DNA of 59,917 nt, taken from positions 1-59,917 of IMG/VR virus record IMGVR_UViG_3300024999_000114; one strand, 5' to 3'. The stretch's first letter is position 1. Each line of letters starts with the position of its first letter. Source of the DNA: a virus. The translations under genes were made by a program, and so were the position numbers. Below the pieces are notes generated by a model. That model was given only the letters and a program-made list of their open reading frames with translations. It searched no databases and was not told the origin of the DNA. This document shows positions 19,496 to 48,227 of this stretch, piece by piece.

Positions 19496-20413
19496 TTACA
19501 CTAGGGAGAGCTGTTGGATGCCGTTGACATAACCGAGGTAGGAAAGGATTTTTGCTTCTCGTTCGGGGGAGTAGTGCTTGAATCCCCTGAACCACGAAGT
19601 AAAATCTTTCGCACTCTTTTGACTATTGCAATTCCTACAAGCAGGTATCACATTATTATATGTGAATCCACCCCCTTTCTTTAAGGGAATAAAGTGGTCG
19701 TAAGTAAGGTTTTTATCCTTGCCACAATAAGCACATTTGTGGGCAAAGTGTTCCTTGATGGAGTTCCATTGTTCAACCGTTAATGTGCTTGGCAAGTCAT
19801 GCGCCAGCGCCCTTCTTCTTTGGGACCTTAGTGCTAACGATGTCTTATAACTTTGACGATGGCGATTAGCAATGGAATACTGCGTACTCCTAATAACTGC
19901 TTTTGCTAAATATTCCTTATTGTTGGAACAATGCTTTTGATACCAATCCCTTGCGTATTGCCTCTTATGTTGATTATTTTCATCATATTTCGTTTTTGAT
20001 TGCTTGCTAGCGCATTCCTTGCAATCTGCCCTTAAAGTATAGCCGGTGCTATAAAAATACTCTCTAGTGAAGGGTAGTTTCTTGTGGCATACGATACACT
20101 CTTTGTATCCATCAACCACCTTCATAACCTCCATGAATTTATACCCTCGACACTCCTTGCATATAGAGCAAACGCCAAATCTGCATTCCTTATCCTTGCT
20201 AAAGTAATATGTGGTGGCCGGAAGCTCTCGCTTGCACTTGGTGCATATCTTATGACCATCTTTTATAAATGGTTCAGGCTTTAGGAACTCACGCCCTCCA
20301 CACTCTCGACAAGAAGAATATAACCCACCCCTGGTTCCTTTTGATACATAAAAATGAAGCCTGTCTGCTGGCAAATTTCTCCCACACCGACTGCACGTCT
20401 TAATTTCACACAC
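19496..20413 (-). CDS. Multi-zinc-finger HNH endonuclease
   Basis: From GTG 20413 (a GTG at 20452 lacks a ribosome binding site) about 305 residues. Four Cys-pair repeats (CSRCGR, CTKCKR, CIVCHK, each about 40 residues apart) precede a C-terminal HNH domain: HKCAYCGKDKNLTYDHFIPL, then NNVIPACRNCNSQKS. The fingers may recognise DNA and the HNH cut it. It probably is a mobile HNH gene or restriction-like nuclease. The start overlaps the end of the upstream small gene. Confidence 0.82.
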   Translation of the reverse strand: MCEIKTCSRCGRNLPADRLHFYVSKGTRGGLYSSCRECGGREFLKPEPFIKDGHKICTKCKRELPATTYYFSKDKECRFGVCSICKECRGYKFMEVMKVVDGYKECIVCHKKLPFTREYFYSTGYTLRADCKECASKQSKTKYDENNQHKRQYARDWYQKHCSNNKEYLAKAVIRSTQYSIANRHRQSYKTSLALRSQRRRALAHDLPSTLTVEQWNSIKEHFAHKCAYCGKDKNLTYDHFIPLKKGGGFTYNNVIPACRNCNSQKSAKDFTSWFRGFKHYSPEREAKILSYLGYVNGIQQLSLV

Positions 20414-20576
20414 AAGCAACCACCCCCGGCGGTATGTAGGAGAAAAGTTCACTTAAATAGCTTTGATCCACTAAGACAACATCTTGAGTAACCACCCACT
20501 TAAAATGGCCTTTCATGTCATACGGCGAAACTAACTTTACTTCTCCATCCATTGTGATTGTTTCTGGAAAATCCAT
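20406..20576 (-). CDS. Small hypothetical protein (56 aa)
   Basis: Starts MDFPETITMDGEVKLVSPYD, RBS AGGAGG at ideal spacing. Beta-rich appearance, no known motif. It overlaps the HNH gene start by eight bases, suggesting coupled translation. Confidence 0.55.
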   Translation of the reverse strand: MDFPETITMDGEVKLVSPYDMKGHFKWVVTQDVVLVDQSYLSELFSYIPPGVVACV

Positions 20577-37317: not shown

Positions 37318-37836
37318 TTACATTCCCATTGCATCTTGGCTGAATGGCATATTTTCCTTCCTAACTTGAATGGAGAAATGTTCTGCATCCCTGAATACCT
37401 TAAAACGCTTATTAAATCTCTTTTCTCCAACCCTGATGTCAACTCGCCAACCTTTTTCATCCTTGTCATAATAAACACCATTAATGCCCGTCTTTGAATT
37501 CTTACTCAGCTTTCGATTCTGCCCATTCTCGGCTATTGTCGCCAGCCTAATATTGCATCTCCTATTATCCAATGTGTCGCGACTTTTATGGTCCACGACA
37601 TGGCCTTGGGGAGCATTAAGTAGGAGTCTCGACAAGGAACGGCTAACTCGCTGAATATTCATAACCACATAATAATCTCCATTGTGGCGACTATCACAAC
37701 CAGCAAACCATGTGCCACTTAAGGAGTTCGCCAACGGCAGGTCTACAGTGTCTATTGTTGTTTCAAGGATTTTGCCATTTTTGCATTGAAGGAAGACTAC
37801 TGTAATATCACCGCGAATTTCATACTTATTTTTCAT
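37318..37836 (-). CDS. HNH homing endonuclease with AP2-type domain
   Basis: 172 residues. HNH part: HVVDHKSRDTLDNRRCNIRL. C-terminal AP2/ERF-like domain: GINGVYYDKDEKGWRVDIRV. This is the common phage homing-endonuclease fusion. It is inserted between the head genes and preceded by a duplicate of the scaffold leader. Confidence 0.88.
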   Translation of the reverse strand: MKNKYEIRGDITVVFLQCKNGKILETTIDTVDLPLANSLSGTWFAGCDSRHNGDYYVVMNIQRVSRSLSRLLLNAPQGHVVDHKSRDTLDNRRCNIRLATIAENGQNRKLSKNSKTGINGVYYDKDEKGWRVDIRVGEKRFNKRFKVFRDAEHFSIQVRKENMPFSQDAMGM

Positions 37837-38408: not shown

Positions 38409-38657
38409 CTATGATTTCAATTTGACCAACTCTTTAATAATTCGTTCAGGTTCAATATGATTGAAGATATATAGAAGTTCTTCCCCGAACTCGTTCCTTA
38501 TGCTGGTAAGCAAATCTTCCGATTTATTAAAATTCACCGTATCTCCATTAGGTAATACTAGGTCAATCCTTTCCTTCATTAGCCTAGCCAAAAGAAAACA
38601 CTCAGTATCCGTGTACCGTTGAGTCCTTTTCTTGTATTCATGCACCTTGTCCACCAC
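38409..38657 (-). CDS. Hypothetical protein overlapping portal
   Basis: 82 residues, MVDKVHEYKKRTQRYTDTEC; helical. It overlaps the end of the portal gene by 20 bases. Function unknown. Confidence 0.55.
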   Translation of the reverse strand: MVDKVHEYKKRTQRYTDTECFLLARLMKERIDLVLPNGDTVNFNKSEDLLTSIRNEFGEELLYIFNHIEPERIIKELVKLKS

Positions 38658-40791
38658 CCTGTTGTTGTATCATTAACTGCTGAACGATTTCAATCTTCTT
38701 CTCATCCGGAAGTTGAGCGAACGCATTCCGTTCCTCTTCGCTCATATGCTGCATGGCTTGCTCAAGGACTTCCTGAACTTGTTGCTGTTGGTTTACGCCA
38801 CCTTGCGGTTGTTGTGGCTCCATTGGTTGCTCTGTGCCCTGTGGCGGCATTTCTTGAGGTTGTTTATTTGCTCCAGACATTGGTGTCGGTTGCAAGCTTT
38901 GTTGTGGCATTTGTAATAGCTGTCCCATTTGGTCTGGCTGTCCTCCTTGCGACTTAATCCCCATCTTGCCTAGCATTTGAGATTGAGCATCAGGCATTAA
39001 GTCTTCGTAGTTGATAGATACTTTGGATTCAGGCTGTGCCGGTGGGGCTTTCGCCTGTGCTTCTAGTTGCTTATTGATGCTGTCGAGGATTGTCTTGGCA
39101 TTAGGGAATTTCTGCGCCACTAATTGAGTCCACAGAACTACGGATGCTGGGCCCGGGTTATATGCTCCATACTTAAGCATTTCAGTTGCTTGGTTGAATA
39201 ACCACATCTTGTCTCGCGGTAGCCCTGCCCCTGCGTCTGCTTGAAAGATGAAGTCTGTGTTGTAGTAGAGTTCTCCTGCTTTATCGCGAACAAGAAAGGC
39301 ATACTTATTGAAATCGCCGAATGAATCTTGTCCATTAGCGTCTTTTGTTACGAATGGTCGAAGTTCATCATAGAATGCTAATTTGAACTCGAACATGATT
39401 TCGTAGAGTTGCTTAAATGCGGCGTATTTGTTTGATTCTTTTGAGCGTAGGCGACCGGACGCTTGCTGTACTTGGATTTGCTTTGCTAGACCGGATACTG
39501 CGGTCGAGTCTGATTTACCTTGATATGAGTTTGTTATACCGAGGGTTGACTGTGCTGCCTTGTATTGTTGTTGAGCAAAGGCAAGGTCGTTGGAAATATT
39601 TGCAGACAAATTCTTTACATTGAGCGCGTTCAACTCGGACTGAGTGCCCCTAATAATTCCGTATAACTCATTAGATAGGTTGAACCTATGACCGTCTAAA
39701 GCTGTAACCACAACAGACCCACGTAAAATCTTTTCCTCAATAGTGGAGACTACTTTTTTATAAGCGTCTTGTTGGTCGCGGATAACATCTACGTCAGATT
39801 GTCCACCAAATGCGAAGTTGAGGGGAATGTTCTCGCGAATGATTAGAGGGTAGCGTGTTGGAGTGAAGTAGGGAACTTTTGTTCCTACGGGGAGGACTTC
39901 GCCGGGTTGCCCATTAACCGAGGATAATGTTACTTCTGTACCTAGCTCTTCAAACTCTTGAATCTTGCCGTTGATGCGCCTTGCATAAAAGTTTTCCATA
40001 TCTTCAAGGATTTCATCCTCGCACCAAACAAGCTTTGACACTTCTCCATCATCATTCTTGTACCAGCACACGATCTCTGTTACCATGTCGGGGTTGTTGG
40101 GCTGAGTGGTGTTACTGACAAGGCTAATGTTGGGAAATTGTTCTCCTACATTCTCGAGATCCACATCATACCGTTTTTTGATGTAGTTCTTTGTGACTGA
40201 ACTCAAAATAAAGAAGTAGTCCATTTTTTGAAGGTCAAATACGCCGGGTTGCGGAATAATCCTTTTGGGATGGACTGACTCTATTTCCAACTCGCCACGG
40301 TATAGGTGATGCTTAAAGTCTGGATTCCAACCCACCAACATAGCAGAGTAGCCTTGCACCGGGGTTATGCGCTCGTTAACATCATTAATGGCTGTCATGC
40401 CTAGTTCTGTTATGTCTGAGGTTAGGGAATCCTCGATCATTGTGGCTTGTACTTCATAGCCAGGGAGCTTGGTTCGGACGGAGGGTTGTGGGATTGTTGA
40501 GTCAACGCCTGTTTCTATGAATTCTAAGACTAGGTTGACTACGTTGTTGGCTTGCTTGCGCTTGCCATTAGATGTACGAGTATTCACATTGCCATCGACA
40601 ATTTTTGTGCCAAGGTAGATAGCTTCTCGCTCGTCTCTGATTGCCTCGTCGATGCCGGCGCGCGCCTCACTAAATTTGTCCTGGAATTTTTTCAGCTTGG
40701 CTTGCTGTTCTGATTCTTCTTTCATGGAGAGTTTTTTATCTTTCAACTTCTTCACCACCTTTTTGCCGAAGTCTTTTATTGCATCAATCAC
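38638..40791 (-). CDS. Portal protein
   Basis: 717 residues, the size of P22-like portals. N-terminal basic helices, then ARAGIDEAIRDEREAIYLGT, RIIPQPGVFDLQKMDYFFIL and the wing/stem region, and a long Gln/Pro/Met-rich C-terminal tail (from about residue 610). It is directly downstream of the terminase genes. Confidence 0.85.
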   Translation of the reverse strand: MIDAIKDFGKKVVKKLKDKKLSMKEESEQQAKLKKFQDKFSEARAGIDEAIRDEREAIYLGTKIVDGNVNTRTSNGKRKQANNVVNLVLEFIETGVDSTIPQPSVRTKLPGYEVQATMIEDSLTSDITELGMTAINDVNERITPVQGYSAMLVGWNPDFKHHLYRGELEIESVHPKRIIPQPGVFDLQKMDYFFILSSVTKNYIKKRYDVDLENVGEQFPNISLVSNTTQPNNPDMVTEIVCWYKNDDGEVSKLVWCEDEILEDMENFYARRINGKIQEFEELGTEVTLSSVNGQPGEVLPVGTKVPYFTPTRYPLIIRENIPLNFAFGGQSDVDVIRDQQDAYKKVVSTIEEKILRGSVVVTALDGHRFNLSNELYGIIRGTQSELNALNVKNLSANISNDLAFAQQQYKAAQSTLGITNSYQGKSDSTAVSGLAKQIQVQQASGRLRSKESNKYAAFKQLYEIMFEFKLAFYDELRPFVTKDANGQDSFGDFNKYAFLVRDKAGELYYNTDFIFQADAGAGLPRDKMWLFNQATEMLKYGAYNPGPASVVLWTQLVAQKFPNAKTILDSINKQLEAQAKAPPAQPESKVSINYEDLMPDAQSQMLGKMGIKSQGGQPDQMGQLLQMPQQSLQPTPMSGANKQPQEMPPQGTEQPMEPQQPQGGVNQQQQVQEVLEQAMQHMSEEERNAFAQLPDEKKIEIVQQLMIQQQGGGQGA

Positions 40792-40850: not shown

Positions 40851-40982
40851 TTATTTAATTTGTTCTGGTAGTTTGAATTTGTCTACCCATGTTTTAGGGT
40901 CAATGGTTAACTCTGTGGGTTTTGTGACCATTACCAACGATTCTGTGTCGAGTCGGTATTCAATTACTAACACTTTAATCAT
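40851..40982 (-). CDS. Small hypothetical protein (43 aa)
   Basis: Starts MIKVLVIEYRLDTESLVMVT. Its ATG overlaps the stop of the terminase C-terminal gene (ATGA), so it is translated by coupling. No known family. Confidence 0.55.
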   Translation of the reverse strand: MIKVLVIEYRLDTESLVMVTKPTELTIDPKTWVDKFKLPEQIK

Positions 40983-42001
40983 CTTCCAATCTTTTTAAGG
41001 ATATATGCCCTCATTTCAGGGGTAGCTCTTTCCAAATCTTCAAGCAAGTCTTCAGGAAGATCGTTCAGGTTTTGCTTCTCTACTATTTGAACAGTAAACC
41101 TCTGTTGTGGTCTTATTTCAGCCGCGATCATATCCGACATTAATAAATCATCATGTTTGCCCGGTGTTGCATCCGGTCGGTTGTTCTTGTCATAGATAAA
41201 GGTTAGGCATTCGCCGAGCATCGTAATGTCGGTGAATAATTCAATGTGTTCCTCAATAAGTGCAATTTCCTTGTCAATGATAAGTGGTCTACTATTCCCA
41301 TCAGTCTTCCATCCGAACTTCTTTTGAATTTCCTTACTGATGCTGTCGTAGGATTGGCGCATGTATTGTTTTGGGTATCTCAGGCGTTCGAGTTCTTCAA
41401 GAGGTGCAGTATTAAAGTTCATTTCAATTCCAATAAGAGCCTCGTTGAAATACTTTCCAAGGCAATAGACCTGATGAGTATATGGTTTAGAATTTGATGA
41501 TTGCATATGAAGTGTGGCGGAACGCTTTCCTGTGATGTTATTTAGGACTGTAGAAGAGTAATAATCTCCCCCTTCTCCTTTTGTGTCTCCACCAATTACA
41601 TATGGATAATCTTTTTGCACATCCTCATAAATGGTAACGAAACCTCGTTCGTCCTCTACCCAATGAATAGAATCATCCTTGATCTTATTTTGAGTATCAG
41701 GATCATCCCATTCAAAAGAAAAACGCCCTCGTTTTGGAGGGTGTTCCTTATAAAGCTTCTTTAGTTCTTCAATCCGCATCTCTACGATTTCATTTGCAAA
41801 TACAGGCCGGCCAGTTGAAAGGAACGCCTCTTTTGGATATGAGGGGTTCTCCTGCTTCATGAGGTTGTGGTCCCCGCCGCAATCGTTCTTTAGTTTCCAA
41901 CGATACCACTTGATTTGACCAAAATCAACTCCATATAGGCTTATTAGACTTTTTTCATAATCATTAAGACTTAATACCTTATTAGCTTCTTCTATATTCA
42001 T
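40979..42001 (-). CDS. terL: Terminase large subunit, C-terminal nuclease half
   Basis: 340 residues from ATG 42001, which overlaps the HNH stop and uses a GGAGGTG inside the HNH gene. It begins mid-protein (LSLNDYEKSLISLYGVDFGQ, then KWYRWKL and PSYPKEAFLSTGRPVF). It carries the RNase-H-type nuclease: VIGGDTKGEGGD, LIGIEMN and GKHDDLLMSDMIAAEI. It lacks the ATPase domain, which is encoded separately at 42495-43370. Confidence 0.88.
   Translation of the reverse strand: MNIEEANKVLSLNDYEKSLISLYGVDFGQIKWYRWKLKNDCGGDHNLMKQENPSYPKEAFLSTGRPVFANEIVEMRIEELKKLYKEHPPKRGRFSFEWDDPDTQNKIKDDSIHWVEDERGFVTIYEDVQKDYPYVIGGDTKGEGGDYYSSTVLNNITGKRSATLHMQSSNSKPYTHQVYCLGKYFNEALIGIEMNFNTAPLEELERLRYPKQYMRQSYDSISKEIQKKFGWKTDGNSRPLIIDKEIALIEEHIELFTDITMLGECLTFIYDKNNRPDATPGKHDDLLMSDMIAAEIRPQQRFTVQIVEKQNLNDLPEDLLEDLERATPEMRAYILKKIGR
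41977..42001. repeat. Direct repeat flanking the HNH insertion in terL, copy 1
   Basis: Contains (minus strand) ATGAATATA, nine bases, then AATAAGG. Copy 2 at 42500-42523 has the same two blocks eight bases apart. The AATAAGG is read in the same frame in both halves of terL. Confidence 0.55.
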
Positions 42002-42489
42002 GGCACGCACCTCCATGAAATGTTTCTCTTTATCCTGCTAACATGGCATTGCTTAATATCGTAATCTTTTGCTATTTCCTTCTGCAATCTATTATCATTT
42101 CTTATCGAAATAATTTGATCGTTAGTTAGTTTTGATTTACCACTTTTTTCCCCAGCTAAGCATGGTGGTCTGTTTCTTTTCTTCTTAATCATATCCATGG
42201 TATTACCCTTCGGAGTATCTACAAATAGGTGTGCAGGATTAATGCACGATTTGTTATCGCATTTATGGCAAACAAACAAGCCTTCCGGTATTTTTCCTTT
42301 ATATTTTTCGTACATGTACCTATGGACTTTAATTATTTTGCCGCCCCTATTCATTTCATGATAACCGCTAGTAACATTAATCCTATGACTATCGCATATC
42401 CAGCAACCATTTTCAGAAACACTCCACGATACCTGCTTGTAGTTATGAGGCTTCCAATTTTCTGCTCTAATGTATTTACCCTTCGGCAT
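41998..42489 (-). CDS. HNH homing endonuclease inserted in terL
   Basis: 163 residues from ATG 42489 (MPKGKYIRAENWKPHNYKQV), RBS AAGGAG lying in the last codons of the upstream terL half. HNH_3 signature: CHKCDNKSCINPAHLFVDTP, then NTMDMIKKKR, and a C-terminal HTH (QKEIAKDYDIKQCHVSRIKR). Its frame differs from terL, so it is not an intein. Confidence 0.92.
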   Translation of the reverse strand: MPKGKYIRAENWKPHNYKQVSWSVSENGCWICDSHRINVTSGYHEMNRGGKIIKVHRYMYEKYKGKIPEGLFVCHKCDNKSCINPAHLFVDTPKGNTMDMIKKKRNRPPCLAGEKSGKSKLTNDQIISIRNDNRLQKEIAKDYDIKQCHVSRIKRNISWRCVP

Positions 42490-42494
42490 GGAAA

Positions 42495-43370
42495 TCACTC
42501 CTTATTGGAATTTATATATTCATTATATACTCTCCATGCCTCATCTTCAATAGCTGTTGTATCAAGCCTATAAAGTTCATAGTCATGCCAAGCGAAGAAC
42601 ATAGGGATAAAGTCATTCTCCCCGGCCTCTGCCTTGTCCCACAAGTCTTTAAAATCGTTCATGCCATTTGCTGTACTCTCTATGATAACAATCGTTCCCG
42701 GTATGTTGGGAACCGACTGAAGTATCCCGGAAAGAGTGGTTGCGGGATTTCCGCCATAGAAGGCGAACTCCGAAAGATGAACGTAGTAATGAGTATCAGA
42801 GCGTCCGATTCCGTCACTGCCAGCAGTTTGAACCTTAATCTTACTATTCAAGCCTTCGCCTTTCCCCTTGTGAGTAGCGGGAAGGTCAAATATAAGTTCA
42901 CGGGCATTAGAAGCTTTCTGTAATGGCTTAATCCGGTCAGGGAGCTTGCTGTACATAAACTTAGCTTTTTCAAAGATGGCATTGGTCGAGTCGTCGCGAT
43001 GGGCAACCACAAGTGCATTTCTGTTCTTATTCTTTGTCAGTCTACAAATCAACTTTCCTTGGGTATATGTGGAAACACCTTCCTGTCTTGCCTTCAATAC
43101 AATGATTCGGGCAGGGATTCCGAGTGTTTCTAGTTCCTTTATTTTATCGTCTATTATTTTCTGGATTGAATTATAGGTTAAGAAAACTTCATTTCCTTTT
43201 TTGTCGATTACCTTGATATAGAAACGACAGAAATCATCATCATTGCGCCTAGCTAATTCGTCCTTAATAGCATCTAACGATGGTAAATCACTCTGCTTTA
43301 TTTTAGGCCTAGCAACTTTAATAGGAGTATCCACGATATCCTTACTCGCCTTTTCCTTCTTGACTACCAT
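42495..43370 (-). CDS. terL: Terminase large subunit, N-terminal ATPase half
   Basis: 291 residues. Walker A variant KARQEGVST (93-101), a HLSEFAFYGG segment in the Walker B position and the coupling motif VIIESTANG. It stops (NSNKE) soon after the ATPase core, at HNH insertion. Large terminases normally carry ATPase and nuclease in one chain of about 600 residues; here they are two. Confidence 0.88.
   Translation of the reverse strand: MVVKKEKASKDIVDTPIKVARPKIKQSDLPSLDAIKDELARRNDDDFCRFYIKVIDKKGNEVFLTYNSIQKIIDDKIKELETLGIPARIIVLKARQEGVSTYTQGKLICRLTKNKNRNALVVAHRDDSTNAIFEKAKFMYSKLPDRIKPLQKASNARELIFDLPATHKGKGEGLNSKIKVQTAGSDGIGRSDTHYYVHLSEFAFYGGNPATTLSGILQSVPNIPGTIVIIESTANGMNDFKDLWDKAEAGENDFIPMFFAWHDYELYRLDTTAIEDEAWRVYNEYINSNKE
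42500..42523. repeat. Direct repeat flanking the HNH insertion in terL, copy 2
   Basis: Second copy of the ATGAATATA/AATAAGG pair, at the end of the N-terminal terL half. Confidence 0.55.
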
Positions 43371-43374
43371 ACTA

Positions 43375-43530
43375 TCACTCCAAAGATACTTGATACGTCA
43401 CCCAGTGTCGCACCCATATTTCTTCCCGGCATTTGTGCTTGCTGTAATTCCATCGTTTGCAGTTTGCGCAATTAACTAGGATACCAGGTTCATTACTTTT
43501 AAATTCGGAGCATGATCTATTTTCGGACAT
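43375..43530 (-). CDS. Small Cys-rich protein
   Basis: 51 residues from ATG 43530 (MSENRSCSEFKSNEPGILVN), RBS AGGAG. CANC and a further Cys (KHKC) suggest zinc binding; ends VRHWVTYQVSLE. Sits between terminase and VUT genes. Confidence 0.5.
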   Translation of the reverse strand: MSENRSCSEFKSNEPGILVNCANCKRWNYSKHKCREEIWVRHWVTYQVSLE

Positions 43531-43584
43531 GGTTTTCACTCCTAGAGATATAAAAATAATCAGCAAGGGCAACGCCGATCTGAA

Positions 43585-44247
43585 CTATTTAGATTGCGTT
43601 CCGCAAGATGGCTCCCACAAAGGGAATTTGTTTTCACTGTTGCACCCAGCCCTATTACACCTAGTCGAAGGATTATAGATTGACATTACGGATAACGGCA
43701 TCCTTTTTCCGCATGTCTCGCAGTTCCTATTTGTTTTTCCTCCGAATCGTTCCAAGTCACCAACTCCGATAAGCTGCATTACCGTTTTAACGATTATTTG
43801 ACCAATTATAGCCATCGGAACTGCTCCCCAAGGTATAAACCCTGCTCCCAATGGAGACAACCCAACCATCACAAATACAGAAGAATCTAAAACACCTGAA
43901 ACCATCCCGCTATAGATAACTCTAAGATGCATCGGTAATCTTAATCTAGTATAAATTTCTGTATCTGTGGTTTCGCTCAATAAAAAACTAACTGCACTAG
44001 CAAGCACAATCCAAAGCGTGTCGCCCAATAATCGGGATGATATTGTGGATAAAATTAATGCCAAAATAATAATTAAATACGTGTTTCTTCTGCCGTGTTT
44101 TTCCTGAACCAAATCCCTTAGGACAAAAGTAGCACCGATTAGAAATGTCCCTAAGGTTATAACAAAAGGCCCTATAATTAATGGTGCGAATGATGCAGTT
44201 AAAACATTAGCGATTATAATTGCCATTAGATAAAGAAATACAATCAA
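43585..44247 (-). CDS. VUT-family transporter, queuosine-precursor type
   Basis: About 220 residues from TTG 44247, whose GGGAGGAG lies inside the dpdA end. At least five membrane helices: an N-terminal ANVLTASFAPL, then GTFLIGATFVLRDLVQEKHG (the family's acidic-basic hallmark loop), SRLLGDTLWIVLAS, SGVLDSSVFVMVGL and WGAVPMAIIGQIIVKTVMQ. This is the YhhQ/QueT-like VUT fold, which imports 7-deazaguanine precursors. A C-terminal tail with CETCGKRM and RCNRAGC is an extra zinc-like module. Confidence 0.85.
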   Translation of the reverse strand: MIVFLYLMAIIIANVLTASFAPLIIGPFVITLGTFLIGATFVLRDLVQEKHGRRNTYLIIILALILSTISSRLLGDTLWIVLASAVSFLLSETTDTEIYTRLRLPMHLRVIYSGMVSGVLDSSVFVMVGLSPLGAGFIPWGAVPMAIIGQIIVKTVMQLIGVGDLERFGGKTNRNCETCGKRMPLSVMSIYNPSTRCNRAGCNSENKFPLWEPSCGTQSK

Positions 44248-44867
44248 GCAAACTCCTCCCAATATTGTTGATTAAGAGTTGCTAATCCCCTTGGAATTAG
44301 CGTATCCGGAAACATGCTAAATCCAGAACCATCCACAGAATTACATCCAATAAGTCTGGCATAATTAATCCTCTTTTTGCTGTTCACCCTACCCATATGC
44401 ACGAACTTACCTCTCAACCGCGCTTCCTTGACAAGTTCCCTAACATAAGCACCAAGTTTGAATTCTGTTGTACCCCCAATAAAAAGTGCCCCAAACTTAG
44501 TCCAATGCACATCGCATTTATCTAATCCATCTTGAGCCACAAGGGATACCGGAAGGTCATACGACTTGATAATAGGCTGCCAATATTCAAACTGCTTTAG
44601 GGTTAGCTCAGCGTTACCAACTACGTCAGGTGCATTTACGAATAGACAACCTTGTTTTCCTTGTATCCTTTTCAAGGTATTTATAAAAGCTTGCTCGTTA
44701 AAACCTGTAAAGCAATCATTGTCCATCGCCCATTTTAGTCCGTAGTCGATGATTATATTTATGTCGTGTCCACCACGGGGAGTTAATAGAAATCCAAGAT
44801 TAGGATTGTCTTTGTATTTTTTAATTGTTTTTGTTGCCCCACTTACCAGAAGTAAGATAGTGTCCAC
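44244..44867 (-). CDS. dpdA: DpdA-family 7-deazaguanine DNA transglycosylase
   Basis: 207 residues from GTG 44867. Its TGT-like barrel motifs are those of phage DpdA: FVNAPDVVG (76-84, base-binding), VAQDG (110-114), FIGGTTEFKL (129-138), HMGRVNS (157-163) and GCNSVDG (174-180), with the Asp as candidate nucleophile. Phage DpdAs exchange guanine in DNA for a 7-deazaguanine, protecting it from restriction. The overlap of its stop with the VUT start (four bases) indicates one salvage unit. Confidence 0.88.
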   Translation of the reverse strand: MDTILLLVSGATKTIKKYKDNPNLGFLLTPRGGHDINIIIDYGLKWAMDNDCFTGFNEQAFINTLKRIQGKQGCLFVNAPDVVGNAELTLKQFEYWQPIIKSYDLPVSLVAQDGLDKCDVHWTKFGALFIGGTTEFKLGAYVRELVKEARLRGKFVHMGRVNSKKRINYARLIGCNSVDGSGFSMFPDTLIPRGLATLNQQYWEEFA

Positions 44868-45339: not shown

Positions 45340-45385
45340 TGGTTTTACATCTCCTTTAATTATTAACATTAAAAATGAGGTAAAT

Positions 45386-46057
45386 TTACCTCAACCCTAT
45401 TTTCTGCATAGCTTCGTCAATTCTACTAAGCCCGTGCTTCCACTCTTTTATTTTCTGAATAACATGCTCGTCCGGCCTAAACCATTCTCCCTTTAATCTC
45501 GATGCTTCAAATTCCTTATGCACCTGTCTCTCTGTGGACTCGTTTCCAGGAACCATAAAAAGAATTGTGAGAGTGTCGGGGTATCCAGTTTGCAATGCTC
45601 TCAATCTCTTCACCGGGTCTACTGAAAATCCTATCTTAATAGCTCCTCCGCACAGGCCCTGAATAAAGTAAACATAGCCCTTCGGGTCAACAGGGAGAAT
45701 AGTTAGTACGTCATTTTCAATTACTGCATCCGGTTTCGCTACCGACATCATGTCTATTTCTTTTCTAATTCGCAAAGCCTTTATTGCTTCATTCTTCTTG
45801 TTCCAGTATTCAGTCCATCTTGGGTCGTCTTTTCTCCACGACCATTTATTGATTTCGTTTTCCAAGATGCTCATGAATCTTCGGTCATACTTAAAGGCGT
45901 TTAACTTATCTTGGCTTCTCCAAATACTAAAACTAATTCCCTTTTCCGCATGACCATCATTCTCTAGCTTTTTCAGAAAATCCTTAATCTTAGCATCCAT
46001 TGGAATACCTAATACACCAAGGAATGCTTGGGCATAGGTTGTGACTCTATTAGACAT
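45386..46057 (-). CDS. T5orf172/GIY-YIG-like nuclease
   Basis: From ATG 46057 (MSNRVTTYAQAFLGVLGIPM), behind GGGGGAC. N-terminal ~130 residues form a separate helical domain. A C-terminal T5orf172/Mug113 domain follows, from GYVYFIQGLCGGAIKIGFSV, then KRLRALQTGYPDTLTILFMV, ERQVHKEFEASRLKGEWFRP. Mobile-nuclease or regulatory function likely. Confidence 0.75.
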   Translation of the reverse strand: MSNRVTTYAQAFLGVLGIPMDAKIKDFLKKLENDGHAEKGISFSIWRSQDKLNAFKYDRRFMSILENEINKWSWRKDDPRWTEYWNKKNEAIKALRIRKEIDMMSVAKPDAVIENDVLTILPVDPKGYVYFIQGLCGGAIKIGFSVDPVKRLRALQTGYPDTLTILFMVPGNESTERQVHKEFEASRLKGEWFRPDEHVIQKIKEWKHGLSRIDEAMQKIGLR

Positions 46058-46058
46058 A

Positions 46059-46598
46059 TCAATTGTCCCCCACTTCATTCATTTTTCCTTTTTTAATTAA
46101 ACGCGATGAAATAACATAACCGCCATCAGTTGAATAAAGGAGTTCGTGTTCCTTCATGTCACCCAATAGGCGGTTTAATTTCTTATTGCCACATCCAAAT
46201 ATTGCTTGAAGCTCTTTATAATTCAGGGGATTCTTATTTCGCGTCTGAATTAATCTCCCTGTGTTCCACTCAACGTATTTACCCAAAGAAACTAAGTACC
46301 CTGCCAATTCCTCGACATTCTTAACTCCACCCTTCTTCAGCTTCTCAATCTCTTCAACCATGAGCATGATATAAGGTTTCTTCCCTCCGGTGTGCTTCGG
46401 AGGGTCTTTATCTTTTTTGGCAGGTTTATTGAGTTTACTCCACCAACTATCAACCACAAGTTCTTCTTCACCATTAGGCATCTTCAATGTCATAAAGTTT
46501 GTTCCATTTGGCGACTTCTCACGAATAAGATACGAACCGGGAGGAAGGGGTAAAATATCAGACGTTTCATTGTAAAAATCAACTATCTTTTTATCCAT
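46059..46598 (-). CDS. Winged-helix protein, RepL-like
   Basis: From ATG 46598 (MDKKIVDFYNETSDILPLPP), behind GAGGTGG. Central PNGEEELVVDSWWSK, then helical GGKKPYIMLMVEEIEKLKKG and a winged HTH end (LNYKELQAIFGCGNKKLNRL, SRLIKKG). The tail matches RepL-like plasmid replication or regulatory proteins. Its long leader is full of hairpins. Confidence 0.6.
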   Translation of the reverse strand: MDKKIVDFYNETSDILPLPPGSYLIREKSPNGTNFMTLKMPNGEEELVVDSWWSKLNKPAKKDKDPPKHTGGKKPYIMLMVEEIEKLKKGGVKNVEELAGYLVSLGKYVEWNTGRLIQTRNKNPLNYKELQAIFGCGNKKLNRLLGDMKEHELLYSTDGGYVISSRLIKKGKMNEVGDN

Positions 46599-47662: not shown

Positions 47663-48214
47663 TTAATCTTTAGGCTCAATATCGACGATCTCACCCTGGA
47701 TCTGTGCTCTCTCCATTATCTCAGCCATGAGCCGCAAATCCTCATCCGAGTAGGCAGAGACAGCCTGGATGAGGAGAGGGCCACCGTTTGGGCCTGTATA
47801 CTCCACAGACTGAGTGTCTTTCCATCCCTTGAAGTTGTTTGTTAGGCTGAATTTAGCACCGTTAACACCATCACGGTCGAAGAGTCTGGCCTCTGTATAT
47901 TCTTCGATCCGGGCCTTAGCTATCAAGATAGTGTCCATGAATTCTTCTTTATCTGTATAATTCAGCAATGTCATCCTACTTGTAAACCCTAAAGCTAATG
48001 CCAGCCCTGTCACTGTAGGAGGTTTACTAACTATCACTGGTTGACCATGCTTATCATAAATAGGTGTTCCGTATTCATCCTTCAGTATCTCGCCCTGGCA
48101 TTTATCGAAATACTTATCTATAATAAGCTGCATTTCCTCAACCGACTTATATCTTGGCTGCCTACCACTTGTAGCACATCCCAACGCATATTGATTACCA
48201 ACCGCAGCAGCCAT
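47663..48214 (-). CDS. terS: Terminase small subunit
   Basis: 183 residues from ATG 48214 (MAAAVGNQYALGCATSGRQP). Helical N-terminal DNA-binding part with VEEMQLIIDKYFDKCQGEIL, PPTVTGLALALGFTSRMTLL (HTH) and a VNGAKFSLTNNFKGWKDTQS end typical of Bacillota-phage TerS. It lies 4.3 kb from terL, unusually far, with DpdA and others between. Confidence 0.78.
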   Translation of the reverse strand: MAAAVGNQYALGCATSGRQPRYKSVEEMQLIIDKYFDKCQGEILKDEYGTPIYDKHGQPVIVSKPPTVTGLALALGFTSRMTLLNYTDKEEFMDTILIAKARIEEYTEARLFDRDGVNGAKFSLTNNFKGWKDTQSVEYTGPNGGPLLIQAVSAYSDEDLRLMAEIMERAQIQGEIVDIEPKD

Positions 48215-48227
48215 ACTAATCACCTCC

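Follow-up and report, generated by a model that had tools for sequence, protein, structure and literature searches.

By textbook account the large terminase subunit (TerL) is a single-chain motor. In the viral DNA analysed here (the window, positions 1 to 59,917 of IMG/VR virus record IMGVR_UViG_3300024999_000114), an earlier note had described the ATPase and nuclease halves of terL as separate reading frames with an HNH homing gene between them, and had proposed that the phage may package with a two-chain terminase. The question is whether such a gene might still provide a working terminase, and how the arrangement may have arisen. In the reading preferred here, to which a probability of roughly three in four is assigned, a free-standing HNH gene lies in terL together with a ready-made split junction, the message is not spliced, and the two chains would be made separately and associate as a two-chain motor.

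Organisation of the interrupted terL locus

The terL locus consists of three genes on the minus strand, which overlap or abut and lie in three different frames (Table 1). Their coordinates and their PHROG and Pfam assignments agree with the order ATPase, HNH, nuclease that the earlier note had given. The HNH gene starts at ATG 42489, preceded by AAGGAG (the list of open reading frames began it at GTG 42498), and the nuclease chain at ATG 42001, preceded by GGAGG (listed from 42016); separate ribosome binding sites for the insert and for the second half, as claimed, are thus present. The HNH start codon lies 5 nt beyond the TGA of the ATPase gene, and the ATG of the nuclease chain overlaps the TGA of the HNH gene in the sequence ATGA. 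The possibility that the stop and the HNH gene are sequencing artefacts was removed by two further assemblies (metagenomes 3300025011 and 3300001041) that carry the identical split with one difference across 8-9 kb, so the split in the window is genuine and no product of assembly.

Table 1. Features of the terminase region in the window
Feature	Coordinates	Strand	Evidence
TerL chain 1, ATPase core, 291 aa	42495..43370	-	PHROG terminase large subunit 1e-12
HNH_3 endonuclease gene, 163 aa	41998..42489	-	Pfam HNH_3 4e-12; PHROG HNH endonuclease 2e-26
TerL chain 2, remaining lid helices, hinge and RNase H-type nuclease, 340 aa	40979..42001	-	PHROG terminase 2e-16
Left flank of the insert, diverged 3' end of chain 1 (foreign junction)	42495..42575	-	Identity drop versus L003
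Right flank of the insert, diverged 5' end of chain 2 (foreign junction)	41918..42001	-	Similar to split viruses L048/L049
Portal protein gene, downstream of terL	38638..40791	-	PHROG portal 2e-37
Small terminase gene, about 4 kb upstream of terL	47663..48223	-	PHROG terS 3e-21; Pfam GP3_package 2e-17

An intein is excluded, because inteins are inserted in frame with the host gene and the three parts here lie in three frames with stop codons between them. An intron has more to be said for it, since the terL interruptions with RNA data that were found in the literature are all spliced (ICP1, PMC10448857; CB7 and the Jug phages, PMC7344957 and PMC12363816), and the insert might accordingly lie within an unrecognised self-splicing intron whose removal yields one TerL. 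This is very unlikely for the window, in which cmscan detected no Rfam intron at the gathering threshold; nor did any group I or group II family, and hence any conserved group I core, match at E values up to 10 at three junctions, that of the window and those of two other split viruses (L048 and L049, see below). Almost no non-coding sequence is left between the abutting or overlapping genes, in line with the view that an HNH frame unlike those of terL leaves no room for an intron core, each part of terL has its own start, stop and ribosome binding site, and the flanking ends (the tail of chain 1 plus the head of chain 2) encode about 20 residues beyond the linker of intact proteins. The terL genes of ICP1, Pectobacterium phage CB7 and the Jug phages resemble that of the window in being interrupted, often with a homing gene (HNH or other) in or beside terL, but theirs are introns with splicing proven or mapped, whereas none is detectable here. 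A literature search, with most subscription papers outside its reach, turned up no naturally split terL that lacks splicing and, within the same limits, neither a split junction shared among several terL backgrounds nor a terL broken in the ATPase lid.

Domains of the two chains and signs of their use

Chain 1 gave a profile match to the T4 gp17 ATPase (3ezk/3cpe, E 6e-16). Its Walker A-like KARQEGVST, VHLSE and ESTA motifs are invariant across the alignment (K93, R95, Q96, G98, T101, S200-E201 and E231-S232-T233-A234) and provide the Walker A, the Walker B with the catalytic acid, and the coupling motif of a gp17-like TerL. Chain 2 carries the RNase H-fold nuclease with its acidic triad (D139, E193 and D284/D285), also invariant in the alignment; in fold, the nuclease domain of an intact relative matches RB49 gp17 (Z 21, rmsd 2.2, 188 residues) as well as the G20c nuclease. 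The two domains share one polypeptide in the close relatives but not in the window, L048 or L049.

The position of the cut was located on a model of the intact TerL of one close relative, L003 (pLDDT 84), in which residues 23-331 align to the T4 gp17 ATPase domain (100-360) and residues 332-572 to the RB49 nuclease domain. The cut corresponds in this model to residues 270-281 and falls in a short helix (269-277), approximately 50-60 residues before the hinge. On the gp17 profile alignment it falls at about residues 327-338, in a numbering anchored on the Walker A lysine, which we take to be residue 166. As modelled, then, the break sits inside the lid region of the ATPase domain and not at the hinge between ATPase and nuclease, so that chain 2 would hold the remaining lid helices and the hinge along with the nuclease. 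Chain 1 ends in a split-specific tail, EDEAWRVYNEYINSNKE, for which a helix is predicted at 273-288, with confidence falling to about 50 at the end. Because of this predicted helix, each chain would seem to have its own version of the linker helix; a true duplication between tail and head is conjecture.

Between the window and L003, the ATPase gave a dN/dS of 0.038 and the nuclease one of 0.024, values that span both branches and may partly predate the split; against L004, the other close relative, they were 0.031 and 0.059. Since part of the L003 divergence may be older than the split, the split-specific head of chain 2 was compared between split viruses. In two pairs of these, other than L048 versus L049, pS was 0.57 and 0.67 against pN of 0.20 and 0.27 (p 0.007 and 0.004; 28 codons only). 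The best reading of the substitution patterns is that both chains appear to have stayed under purifying selection, and the evidence for a functional split terL may be called good, short of proof.

Alternatively, the split terL might be a dead gene carried by phages that are decaying or dependent on a helper. An additional frameshift in the nuclease chain of L046-L048 would agree with this, as would the T4 precedent, where gp17 cut at the hinge kept its ATPase and nuclease activities and lost translocation (PMC3012670, PMC9958956). Decay is nevertheless improbable, given that the window chains have no stops and keep their catalytic residues, that dN/dS is 0.02-0.06 and the split-specific head is constrained, that no second terL exists elsewhere in the window, and that three separate viruses, in several assemblies, carry the split. 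The loss of translocation on splitting the T4 linker means that a two-chain motor would need special compensation, and a natural cut elsewhere is therefore of interest. The engineered T4 protein is likewise a two-chain terminase, but its cut is artificial and at the hinge, whereas that of the window is natural, lies earlier, in the lid, and comes with added ends.

Relatives, the HNH insert and the history of the junction

The survey covered about 260 loci, including genome contigs, and found an intact terL in 231 by the same profile test. Halves parted by an endonuclease gene occurred only in the virus of the window, in L046/L047/L048, which are one virus in three assemblies, and in L049, the contig of which is extended by L131 through an exact overlap of 48 nt. 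The closest other relatives of the window, L003 and L004, have a single intact terL of 608 and 609 residues with nothing between the halves, which supplies the comparison with intact genes that the earlier note had proposed; their ATPase is 97% and 96% and their nuclease 90% and 81% identical to that of the window. In L048 and L049 the cut in terL falls at the point seen in the window. The inserted gene encodes an HNH enzyme of 260 aa in L048 and of 237 aa in L049; the two proteins share 38% identity, their NUMOD3 motif is clear in L049 and below threshold in L048, and neither has a detectable relation to the HNH_3 protein of the window. A nucleotide search of the phage collection gave no match.

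Several other candidates for a split terL were rejected. Those in L167, L134, L039/L086 and L212 are truncated or interrupted elsewhere and differ in layout, and Vibrio phage 1.182.O and Sinorhizobium phage PBC5, where annotated features beneath the match had suggested a split, each have one terL CDS. The nuclease region of terL contains an in-frame stop at L039:5231 (L086:4231) and a frame change at L134:6034-6053 and L212:1777-1901. In L048 (5165-5180), as well as in L046 and L047, a +1 shift breaks the nuclease chain at AAT CCC TAG C, where decoding as P followed by S recovers QENPSFASEAF; the site is identical across the three assemblies. In Listeria phages +1 frameshifting is known to occur at CCC_UGA (PMC5009743), and the shift in L046-L048 may reflect either recoding or decay. 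A different terminase is encoded by L027 (5001-6617) and L028 (5001-6614), of which the first approximately 36 and the last approximately 31 residues match the TerL of the window, as if the entire middle had been exchanged between conserved ends.

The insert of the window matches HNH_3 over positions 2-45 of 46 (46 bits against a cut-off of 24.8) and thus carries the HNH catalytic motif expected of a free-standing Mob-like homing endonuclease; a possible helix-turn-helix at its C-terminus is indicated by a Sigma70_r4 match that stays below threshold (12.6 bits, E 0.1). Its relatives were found in about 1100 phage records at many sites, and those of the L048/L049 type are also common at other phage sites, as expected for mobile genes. 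Among 82 loci, no HNH relative was found inside other terL genes beyond the known splits. The site is occupied in the window and empty in L003 and L004, with altered flanks, as in homing with co-conversion. Other endonuclease-like genes of the window are an HNH_3 gene after the portal gene (37318-37836), an endonuclease VII/HNH-type gene (19496-20452) and, between terS and terL, a gene of the T5orf172 (GIY-YIG-like) type (45386-46078).

Instead of being a homing enzyme, the HNH protein might serve in the packaging machinery itself, as HK97 gp74 does; HNH genes beside the terminase of HK97 are described as assisting cos cleavage in work cited in PMC10448857. Such a role is hard to reconcile with the empty site in the closest intact relatives, with two unrelated HNH families among three splits, or with relatives of both genes mostly at other sites, and it is regarded as highly improbable. 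HK97 gp74-type proteins are similarly encoded next to terL, but outside it and conserved in the packaging module.

The TerL proteins of the window and L003 are identical or nearly identical along their length (100% over residues 41-260 and 301-380) except at residues 261-300, where identity drops to 35% over residues 261-280 and 55% over the remainder of 261-300; the blastn match to L003/L004 stops at window 42577-42580, and identity resumes at QIKWYRWK. In the chain 2 head, 12 informative sites join the window with L048 and 2 join it with L003 (hand-made short alignment), against 2 and 129, respectively, in the rest of the nuclease (Fisher p 7e-14 for the head/body contrast). All three split nuclease chains begin at one alignment column, MNIEEANKVLSLNDYEK, MNLPEALQVLNLNDYEK and VDIKEANGILNLSEYEK (MNIEEA, MNLPEA and VDIKEA), and all three ATPase tails contain EAW.V[YF], which was not seen in the intact linkers listed. 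The terL bodies group differently: that of the window falls with L003 and L004, that of L048 with the L115/L100 lineage, and that of L049 adjoins that group. Three changes between intact and split are required on each of the two body trees (ATPase and nuclease), and a single clade of the three split viruses is rejected for the nuclease bodies (p 1e-7) and undecided for the ATPase bodies (p 0.46).

Independent insertions of different HNH genes at one sensitive site would account for the two unrelated HNH families and for the scattering of split viruses over different parts of the body trees, and the ATPase tree neither rejects nor supports one clade. Such repeated insertion is unlikely, since the start-codon column and the tail motif are common to the splits and the heads are more alike among them than to their own intact relatives. 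To judge from these comparisons, the junction is old and common to other viruses rather than the outcome of a one-off event. We infer that homing with co-conversion may have carried one old split junction into terL genes of different backgrounds, with a later exchange of the HNH gene. Homing is documented to co-convert flanking sequence (PMC2988022), and in ICP1 the replacement of one homing gene by another at a single locus has been documented (PMC10448857). A donor of the window junction with HNH_3 was not found.

Imperfect repeats (ATGAATATA...AATAAGG) had also been noted at the borders of the insert. They are present on both sides, and the AAT AAG codons have the same phase in both copies, so that joining at AATAAGG would indeed restore the frame. 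The joined sequence occurs in no relative, however, and would have a linker about 11 residues longer than that of intact relatives. The best local similarity between tail and head is weak (P 0.04 against shuffles) and lies in a register other than that of these repeats, and no matching flanking repeat was seen in L048 or L049. The repeats were for these reasons rejected as a target duplication and not used as evidence of the insertion point.

Proposed two-chain motor and its known parallels

A free-standing HNH homing endonuclease gene would thus sit inside terL, having arrived from another split phage, by double-strand-break repair, with a ready-made junction made up of an ATPase-chain end and a nuclease-chain start; the divergence footprint suggests co-conversion of about 80 nt on each side of the insert. 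The three genes would be translated separately from an unspliced polycistronic message, by coupling or from internal ribosome binding sites. Each chain would contribute a version of the linker helix, the ATPase chain at its end and the second chain at its start, and non-covalent association of the two chains might rebuild the ATPase lid and the motor. Intact relatives, two further splits and the lack of an intron core favour the original proposal of a terminase in two chains after HNH insertion, which would also fit the separate ribosome binding sites, the conserved catalytic residues and the purifying selection. We lean, though not strongly, towards the wider view that this is a natural two-chain packaging motor with a shared ATPase lid, and that tail, endonuclease and head form a mobile cassette by which intact terL genes of several lineages have become split, with exchange of the endonuclease.

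Essential phage genes split by an endonuclease are already known, and the window appears to be the terL case. In Aeromonas phage Aeh1, the essential gene nrdA is cut into two frames by the free-standing HNH gene mobE, is not spliced, and yields two chains that form a working enzyme (PMC2988022). The window differs in that the host gene encodes the packaging motor, that two-chain function is a prediction, that the junction is common to viruses with differing gene bodies, and that the HNH type appears to have been exchanged. T4 gene 39/60 (mobA) and gene 43 of Aeromonas phages, the latter a working split enzyme (PMC2988022), are likewise split essential phage enzymes tied to homing endonucleases, but in different genes, and the window has no visible translational bypass element. 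The split terL viruses would also provide a clear case in which a homing endonuclease rewrites the architecture of an essential gene and carries the change between lineages.

Several elements were also observed around the terminase genes. In a 45-nt element (45349-45393), T-rich sequence and a ribosome binding site follow a perfect 18-nt palindrome, TGAGGTAAATTTACCTCA; despite the divergence of neighbouring genes, the element has 100% identity in L005 and in L027 and 95% in L048, and it is a candidate operator, promoter or terminator-like element. Between the terminase genes (43585-44867) lie a Vut_1 transporter gene (PF02592) and a phrog_15826 gene, the latter presumably resembling a TGT/DpdA-type protein, and the two are possibly involved in 7-deazaguanine DNA modification. 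Directly upstream of terL is a small cysteine-rich ORF (43375-43572, NCANCKRW...CREE), and similar small ORFs precede terL in L048 and L049.
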